This document shows, in pieces, positions 7,903 through 8,162 of a DNA stretch of 13,871 bases; the first letter of the stretch is position 1; each line of letters starts with the position of its first letter. The translations under genes were made by a program, and so were the position numbers. The DNA lies in contig JANXTN010000041.1 in assembly GCA_025352435.1 (NCBI GenBank), forward strand, positions 1-13,871, written 5' to 3'. Origin of the DNA: Ferruginibacter sp. (GTDB lineage: Bacteria; Bacteroidota; Bacteroidia; Chitinophagales; Chitinophagaceae). The notes under the pieces are model-generated. The model was not told where the DNA came from and searched no databases. It saw only the letters and a list, made by a program, of their open reading frames with translations.

Positions 7903-7925
7903 TTCACCGCAGAGTGTGAGAGTTA
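7903..7925 (+). repeat. Left terminal inverted repeat
   Basis: It begins TTCACCGCAGAG and ends AGAGTTA. Compared with the reverse complement of 8140-8162 it shares the blocks TTCACC, GAG and AGAGTTA without gaps, 18 of 23 identities. Confidence 0.6.
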
Positions 7926-7945
7926 AAAGATTTTTCGCAGCGTTA

Positions 7946-8153
7946 TTAGAAATTGCTTAAGACTCTTTTAAATCCCTCTTTGAGCAGCGGAACATCAAAG
8001 TTTATCAGGTACCCTAAATTTTAGATTTATAATCTATTATAAATTCACACTCTACAGGTAAATTTATCTCGTAAGTTTTGCCCAAAGAATCTTGTAATCC
8101 ATGTTGTATAATAAATTAAAATCTCAGCGTATCCTCATGTAACTCTTATTCTC
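7946..8153 (-). pseudogene. GxxExxY family protein remnant
   Basis: On the minus strand, the frame at 8014-7946 reads GYLINFDVPLLKEGFKR, then five more residues and a stop. This is the characteristic C-terminal end of GxxExxY proteins (PD-(D/E)XK nuclease-like, common in Bacteroidota). A different frame at 8103-8014 reads HGLQDSLGKTYE followed by INLPVECEF and then YKSKI plus a stop, resembling the N-terminal G-L-x-E-S-x-Y-E signature and the following strand. A third piece near 8153 reads ENKSY, like the usual ENELSY start. The segment encoding the catalytic Asp and Glu-x-Lys core is missing. Intact members have about 125 residues, whereas only about 70 codons of space remain, with at least one frameshift and several stops. 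Not functional. Identification rests on recalled family pattern, most securely the C-terminus. Confidence 0.65.
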
Positions 8154-8162
8154 CGAGGTGAA
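8140..8162 (-). repeat. Right terminal inverted repeat
   Basis: Read on the minus strand from 8162 it begins TTCACCTCGGAG and ends AGAGTTA, the imperfect mirror of 7903-7925. Its outer base is directly next to the FAH stop codon (8163-8165). Confidence 0.6.

Follow-up and report, generated by a model that had tools for sequence, protein, structure and literature searches.

A decayed GxxExxY gene within an imperfect palindrome of Ferruginibacter, and a possible repeat system built on a Cas4-like nuclease

The window analyzed here, a stretch of 13,871 nucleotides from a Ferruginibacter sp. contig (JANXTN010000041.1), carries in an operon gap the remains of a GxxExxY gene enclosed by imperfect inverted ends. 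This arrangement, from which the original prediction started, is real and general. Gene-plus-palindrome units of this kind are widespread in Bacteroidota and apparently represent an undescribed class. We read the window as holding a decayed copy of a two-part chromosomal element, a long imperfect palindrome that has as its loop the small gene for a PD-(D/E)XK nuclease (GxxExxY, PF13366/TIGR04256). The best reading of the unit, which we regard as equally balanced between right and wrong, is a system resembling REPIN/RAYT but built on a Cas4-like nuclease. The original prediction had missed the four-motif composition of the arms, the dispersed palindromes that lack the gene, and the parallel units that contain PF05635 genes.

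The two operon genes flanking the unit, one of the fumarylacetoacetate hydrolase (FAH) family and the other flavin-reductase-like, are 277 nt apart. Their coordinates (Table 1) confirm the predicted geometry, in which the first base of the unit directly follows the FAH stop codon and 17 nt separate its other end from the next start. The predicted inverted match was also found: positions 7903-7925 and the reverse complement of 8140-8162 are identical at 18 of 23 positions (counted by eye; a search for the best-matching pair of 23-mers close to the edges also gave 18). In 1000 dinucleotide shuffles the number never exceeded 16. A longer local alignment of the ends extends over 46 columns with a score of 32, corresponding to 31 matches, and was equalled or exceeded in one of 1000 shuffles. 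The length of 23 bp originally given to the ends did not stand, however. Inspection by eye and comparison with congeners put each real end at about 40 nt, and on the minus strand the ends read as four GAG-like motifs spaced roughly 8, 8-9 and 11-12 nt (by eye). An Rfam scan of the window gave nothing at the gathering score; the unit sits in an operon gap, not in 23S rRNA.

Table 1. Coordinates of the unit and of its neighbors in the window
Feature	Position	Strand	Basis
Upstream operon gene, fumarylacetoacetate hydrolase family, PF01557	8163..9167	-	334-aa ORF; 178.8 bits
5' (sense) unit end, four GAG-like motifs	8123..8162	-	Shuffles; similar layout in orthologous slots (by eye)
GxxExxY remnant, piece corresponding to residues 63-83 of the G046 orthologue	8023..8085	-	tblastn 67%, E 1e-6
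GxxExxY remnant, C-terminal piece corresponding to residues 91-128, internal stops, other frame	7949..8062	-	tblastn 55%, E 3e-13
3' unit end, inverted copy of the 5' end (18/23 outer bases)	7903..7942	-	Alignment, shuffles
Downstream operon gene, flavin-reductase-like, PF01613	6995..7885	-	296-aa ORF; 63 bits

The reference for the remnant was the intact orthologue of genome G046, the closest congener, to which the window copy was matched by tblastn only. At the DNA level, 197 of 255 aligned bases are identical between the window gap and the G046 gap, relative to which the window has deletions of 146, 61 and 30 nt as well as smaller ones. Judging from its sequence, the GxxExxY gene of the window is dead, broken by deletions, with both ends still visible. 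L143, an intact orthologue from this slot, belongs to the GxxExxY family TIGR04256/PF13366, with 122.9 bits (cut-off 35) and 121.5 bits (cut-off 22), respectively, and GxxExxY has the fold and the catalytic residues of PD-(D/E)XK or Cas4-like nucleases. Between the FAH and flavin reductase genes of G046, the GxxExxY gene is the sole ORF of at least 80 amino acids, and the unit contains no transposase gene. GxxExxY genes are widespread and, to our knowledge, have no assigned role; their name and accessions are seldom mentioned in the literature searched.

Of 59 genomes of the genus searched for the FAH gene, the window genome among them, 48 have it. The gap behind it was read in 32 genomes, in 28 of which it is followed by a flavin-reductase gene. 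In five of them (G046, G053, G068, G008 and G015) the gap holds an intact GxxExxY gene with CGC[A/T]GAG-type ends (identified by eye). The gap of G040, 94 nt long, has both ends without the gene, that of G066 has a PF05635 gene (99.7 bits) between GGGTTA-type ends, and those of G011, G072 and G051 contain other gene-less inverted sequences (by eye). The remaining 17 genomes, the window genome apart, have a gap of 0-102 nt; these short gaps in congeners without the unit bear out the expectation that its removal would restore ordinary operon spacing.

The five proteins encoded in the FAH slot are mutually nearest in the set (58-80% identity, the next best being at most 58%) and form one clade (100/100) among the 22 proteins in the tree. 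Silent sites of their genes are near saturation (pS 0.70-0.85) and pN is low (0.12-0.28), which indicates purifying selection on the gene. The presence of related units, belonging to one protein clade, in the same gap of five congeners marks the window unit as long established, not as a recent arrival. The unit-bearing genomes are scattered over the FAH tree in a pattern that fits repeated loss or repeated entry alike. G008 is paired with G015 in the FAH tree (100/99), and G015 with G068 in the nuclease tree (98/89); as to possible horizontal entry into the slot, the FAH grouping withstood the AU test (p 0.07). In the slot of G008 (L068) the left end occurs three times in tandem, and truncated GxxExxY starts follow two of these copies (by eye).

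Inverted ends were expected to recur around other GxxExxY genes, and they do. The window genome has five further GxxExxY genes, one of them broken. In every one of the five the inverted flanks score above the 99th percentile of cross pairs, and the ends at each locus are of a different kind. In the window genome and 38 relatives, 89 matches were reduced to 72 loci by merging halves of one gene and dropping several contig-end, partial or stop-bearing rows; 70 of these loci were usable. The similarity between the left and right flanks of the same locus has a median of 43, compared to 23 in mismatched pairs. It exceeds the 95th percentile of mismatched pairs in 51 of the 70 loci and the 99th percentile in 38, leaving 19 genes without inverted flanks above the lower threshold. 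Among 30 control loci with PIN-domain genes, fetched from the matches in the same genomes, three exceed the 95th percentile and two the 99th.

Public genomes were scanned with one GxxExxY subfamily, and the best 80 of the 588 loci found (the named set, with 79 usable loci) are mostly from Bacteroidota, but also from Planctomycetota, Pyrinomonadaceae and a Methylobacter bin. The end array in this subfamily has the form TTAACCRCARAG NN CRCNAAG N3-6 CRCARAG NN CRCNAAG, in which the first gap is 1-2 nt. In the 79 usable loci of the best 80 of 588, the array scores above the 99th percentile of shuffled flanks on the left in 60, on the right in 67 and on both sides in 56; the corresponding numbers for the 70 loci of the mixed relatives set are 13, 8 and 7. 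Own pairs exceed the 95th percentile of cross pairs in 24 of the same 79 loci, a small number because the cross pairs share the array. A relaxed motif is found within 400 nt of the gene in 57 of the best 80 of 588 loci and in eight of the 72 GxxExxY loci of the mixed relatives, and within this distance of none of the 34 PF05635 genes among the matches listed and none of the 30 PIN genes. Related arrays also flank GxxExxY genes in records of Bacteroides finegoldii and Bernardetia that are labelled as plasmids (by eye).

The ends go with the gene, as the original prediction implied. Across 39 units, end similarity rises with protein identity, giving a rho of 0.32 for pairs below 80% identity that none of 2000 permutations reached (the best gave 0.16). 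End types vary between protein clusters, although the two largest clusters contain several types each. The motifs have been conserved over long vertical descent. In ten syntenic orthologues, 86% of motif positions on the left and 83% on the right are identical, compared to 57% and 60% of spacer positions. In the same orthologues the left and right spacers of one unit match at a fraction of 0.58, compared to 0.49 in cross pairs. The differences between arms in 95 alignments are G-U-compatible on the sense strand in 113 cases and of the opposite kind in 162, a skew that base composition may explain. Conserved motifs, hardly any conservation of spacer pairing and no G-U excess together indicate that it is the motif sequence, rather than a stem, that persists.

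The units are biased towards the direction of the host operon. Under a simple ORF rule, and with syntenic orthologues left in, both neighbors were identified for 68 of 90 units; both lie on the gene's own strand in 50 units and both on the opposite strand in seven. The numbers are 22 and 3 in the relatives, and 28 and 4 in the best 80 of 588 subfamily loci. Co-directional upstream genes end within 10 nt of the unit edge in 38 of 59 cases. When flanks were compared for the closest 60 of the 433 protein pairs with at least 72% identity, most pairs were found to share both. Several close pairs, however, show no flank similarity in the DNA compared, at 88% (L056/L063), 84% (L015/L054, L205/L214 and L173/L175) and 82% (L193/L233) protein identity, so units do relocate. 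The idea that GxxExxY units travel thus holds for some of them, but not for the long-settled copy in the window.

Palindromes with such ends are also found without the gene. A 16-nt end pattern is present in 22 of the 39 genomes that comprise the window genome and its relatives, and 70 loci fetched around its sites contain 94 distinct sites, 40 of which have a nearby inverted mate scoring above the 99th percentile of shuffles. These 40 sites constitute 29 distinct palindromes, ten of them in G034. One (L271), whose score of 22 lies just above the threshold, coincides with a GxxExxY unit end. Dispersed inverted doublets of the REPIN/RAYT type are present outside the gene's own unit. Nine palindromes were sized, at 52, 59 and, for seven of them, 82-95 bp. 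All sites listed for G032 have CAGAG and all those listed for G034 have CAAAG. Most sites in G034 lie inside a larger dispersed repeat, which may have another mover. This repeat (L323-L352) is about 225 bp long and gave 69 blast matches; its central CRCAAAG palindrome is variable, being absent or shortened in some copies.

In 198 genomes of the order, 426 sites, the units' own ends included, were counted in the 102 genomes with a gene of the subfamily, compared to 77 in the 96 genomes without one (kinship ignored). The number of sites exceeds two per gene in only 24 of the 102 gene-bearing genomes, by 273 sites in all. At least eight sites are present in 13 gene-bearing genomes and in one without the gene. 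G075 has 17 sites, yet no A3-type gene. In contigs labelled viral, the motif pattern gave 85 stretches, five of which read as palindromes, and a protein search found one GxxExxY locus.

In its workings the GxxExxY unit comes closest to a REPIN/RAYT pair, yet it contains no Y1/HUH transposase, the component by which such pairs are defined. With the REPIN/RAYT system as described (Bertels and Rainey 2011, PMC3116915), the unit has in common a gene tied to short inverted repeats, dispersed gene-less inverted doublets, co-variation of gene and repeat type, and units that are sometimes clustered. The two differ in the enzyme, here a PD-(D/E)XK nuclease (PF13366) instead of a Y1 transposase, in the arms, each composed of some four arrayed motifs, and in the position of the gene, which the arms enclose. 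We infer, as the most economical account rather than as a demonstration, that the units are moved by their own nuclease. The nuclease would recognize its own motif arrays, about four short motifs forming each arm of the palindrome, and would on rare occasions cause palindromes, whether or not they contain the gene, to be copied or relocated, the role proposed for RAYTs with regard to REPINs. Between moves, selection on both gene and ends would retain a unit in its operon gap. If this is true, GxxExxY genes are part of palindromes whose spread they may bring about, a REPIN/RAYT-like arrangement has arisen on an unrelated enzyme, and there is an experimental handle on GxxExxY proteins and on a set of intergenic repeats.

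A broader and more tentative proposal, which we consider somewhat more likely to be wrong than right, is that of a new class of repeat systems. PD-(D/E)XK (Cas4-like) nucleases would recognize and spread palindromes made of their own motif arrays, in gene-bearing (autonomous) and gene-less (~90 bp) forms with co-evolving motifs, inherited in operon gaps of Bacteroidota. The four-helix proteins of PF05635 would be a second, parallel class with the 23S rRNA intervening sequences (IVS) as its special cases, which would give these sequences a wider family.

It is unlikely, although the possibility is a substantial one, that the units are passive and MITE-like, a Y1/HUH (RAYT-like) or other transposase moving palindromes and units in trans with the nuclease as cargo. 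Y1_Tnp is present in 159 of the 198 genomes of the order, including all 19 genomes with at least five sites, and Y1-bearing genomes exceed the others in sites even when they lack an A3-type gene (mean 1.08 vs 0.23). When only Y1-bearing genomes are considered, however, those with the GxxExxY gene have more sites than those without it (mean 4.47 vs 1.08), and the ends track the GxxExxY protein. The relaxed motif is absent from the 18 Y1 loci that were read, taken from nine site-rich genomes holding 41 Y1 matches. These Y1 genes (L406-L423) have inverted flanks of their own in 11 of 17 usable cases, consistent with ordinary RAYTs.

IS elements and MITEs have inverted ends and gene-less derivatives. 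GxxExxY units have both too, but they carry no transposase gene, showed no target duplication and stay long in one place. The original prediction had looked to empty sites in relatives for such a duplication; an all-against-all blastn of 513 loci yielded 32 candidate rows, and neither an alignable empty site nor a target duplication was found. Members of the dispersed repeat of G034 account for 29 of the rows, two rows (L290/L289) are one orthologous pair with the palindrome in both, and in the last (L201/L203) both members carry the gene. The units were also considered as plasmid or phage cargo, which was rejected: tblastn with one protein found eight of 72,556 plasmid records and none of 50,697 phage records.

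Quite improbable, in our estimate, is an RNA-level element similar to an IVS, in which the inverted ends would be kept as an RNA stem and RNase III would excise the gene from the operon transcript or silence it. PMC4990558 describes in the Coxiella IVS an ORF within terminal inverted repeats that form a 28-bp stem, and calls the function and origin of 23S rRNA intervening sequences unclear. The architecture, a small ORF within terminal inverted repeats, is the same as that of the GxxExxY units, but the latter lie in operon gaps and encode GxxExxY (PF13366) instead of S23p/PF05635. PF05635 itself occurs in parallel units of these genomes, as in the FAH gap of G066. A set of 34 PF05635 loci was assembled from five of six own-genome matches and 29 others among the matches listed; of its 32 usable members, 18 have inverted flanks above the 95th percentile and nine above the 99th. 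Inverted flanks are therefore not peculiar to the GxxExxY nuclease. The prevalence of units co-directional with both neighbors would also suit an RNA element. The sense strand, however, shows no excess of G-U-compatible differences, vertical descent has preserved the motif sequence but hardly any spacer pairing, and a stem would not need motif arrays. Selection for an RNA stem thus found support neither in wobble asymmetry nor in the comparison of own and cross spacer pairing.

Bacterial intergenic DNA often forms hairpins, but an ordinary operon gap, with a terminator or attenuator hairpin next to a decayed gene and chance pairing of the ends, is a most improbable explanation given the shuffles of the 23-mer match, the recurrence of inverted ends around other GxxExxY genes compared to the PIN family, and the similar ends in orthologous slots.

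Many PF05635 (23S IVP) genes (L037-L041 and L083-L111) have inverted arrays of 7-9 nt repeats, which differ from copy to copy (the period was determined by eye). At locus L002, a second right end (positions ~1900-2016) follows an apparent second GxxExxY C-terminus and is positioned between two genes resembling a split methionine synthase (both by eye).
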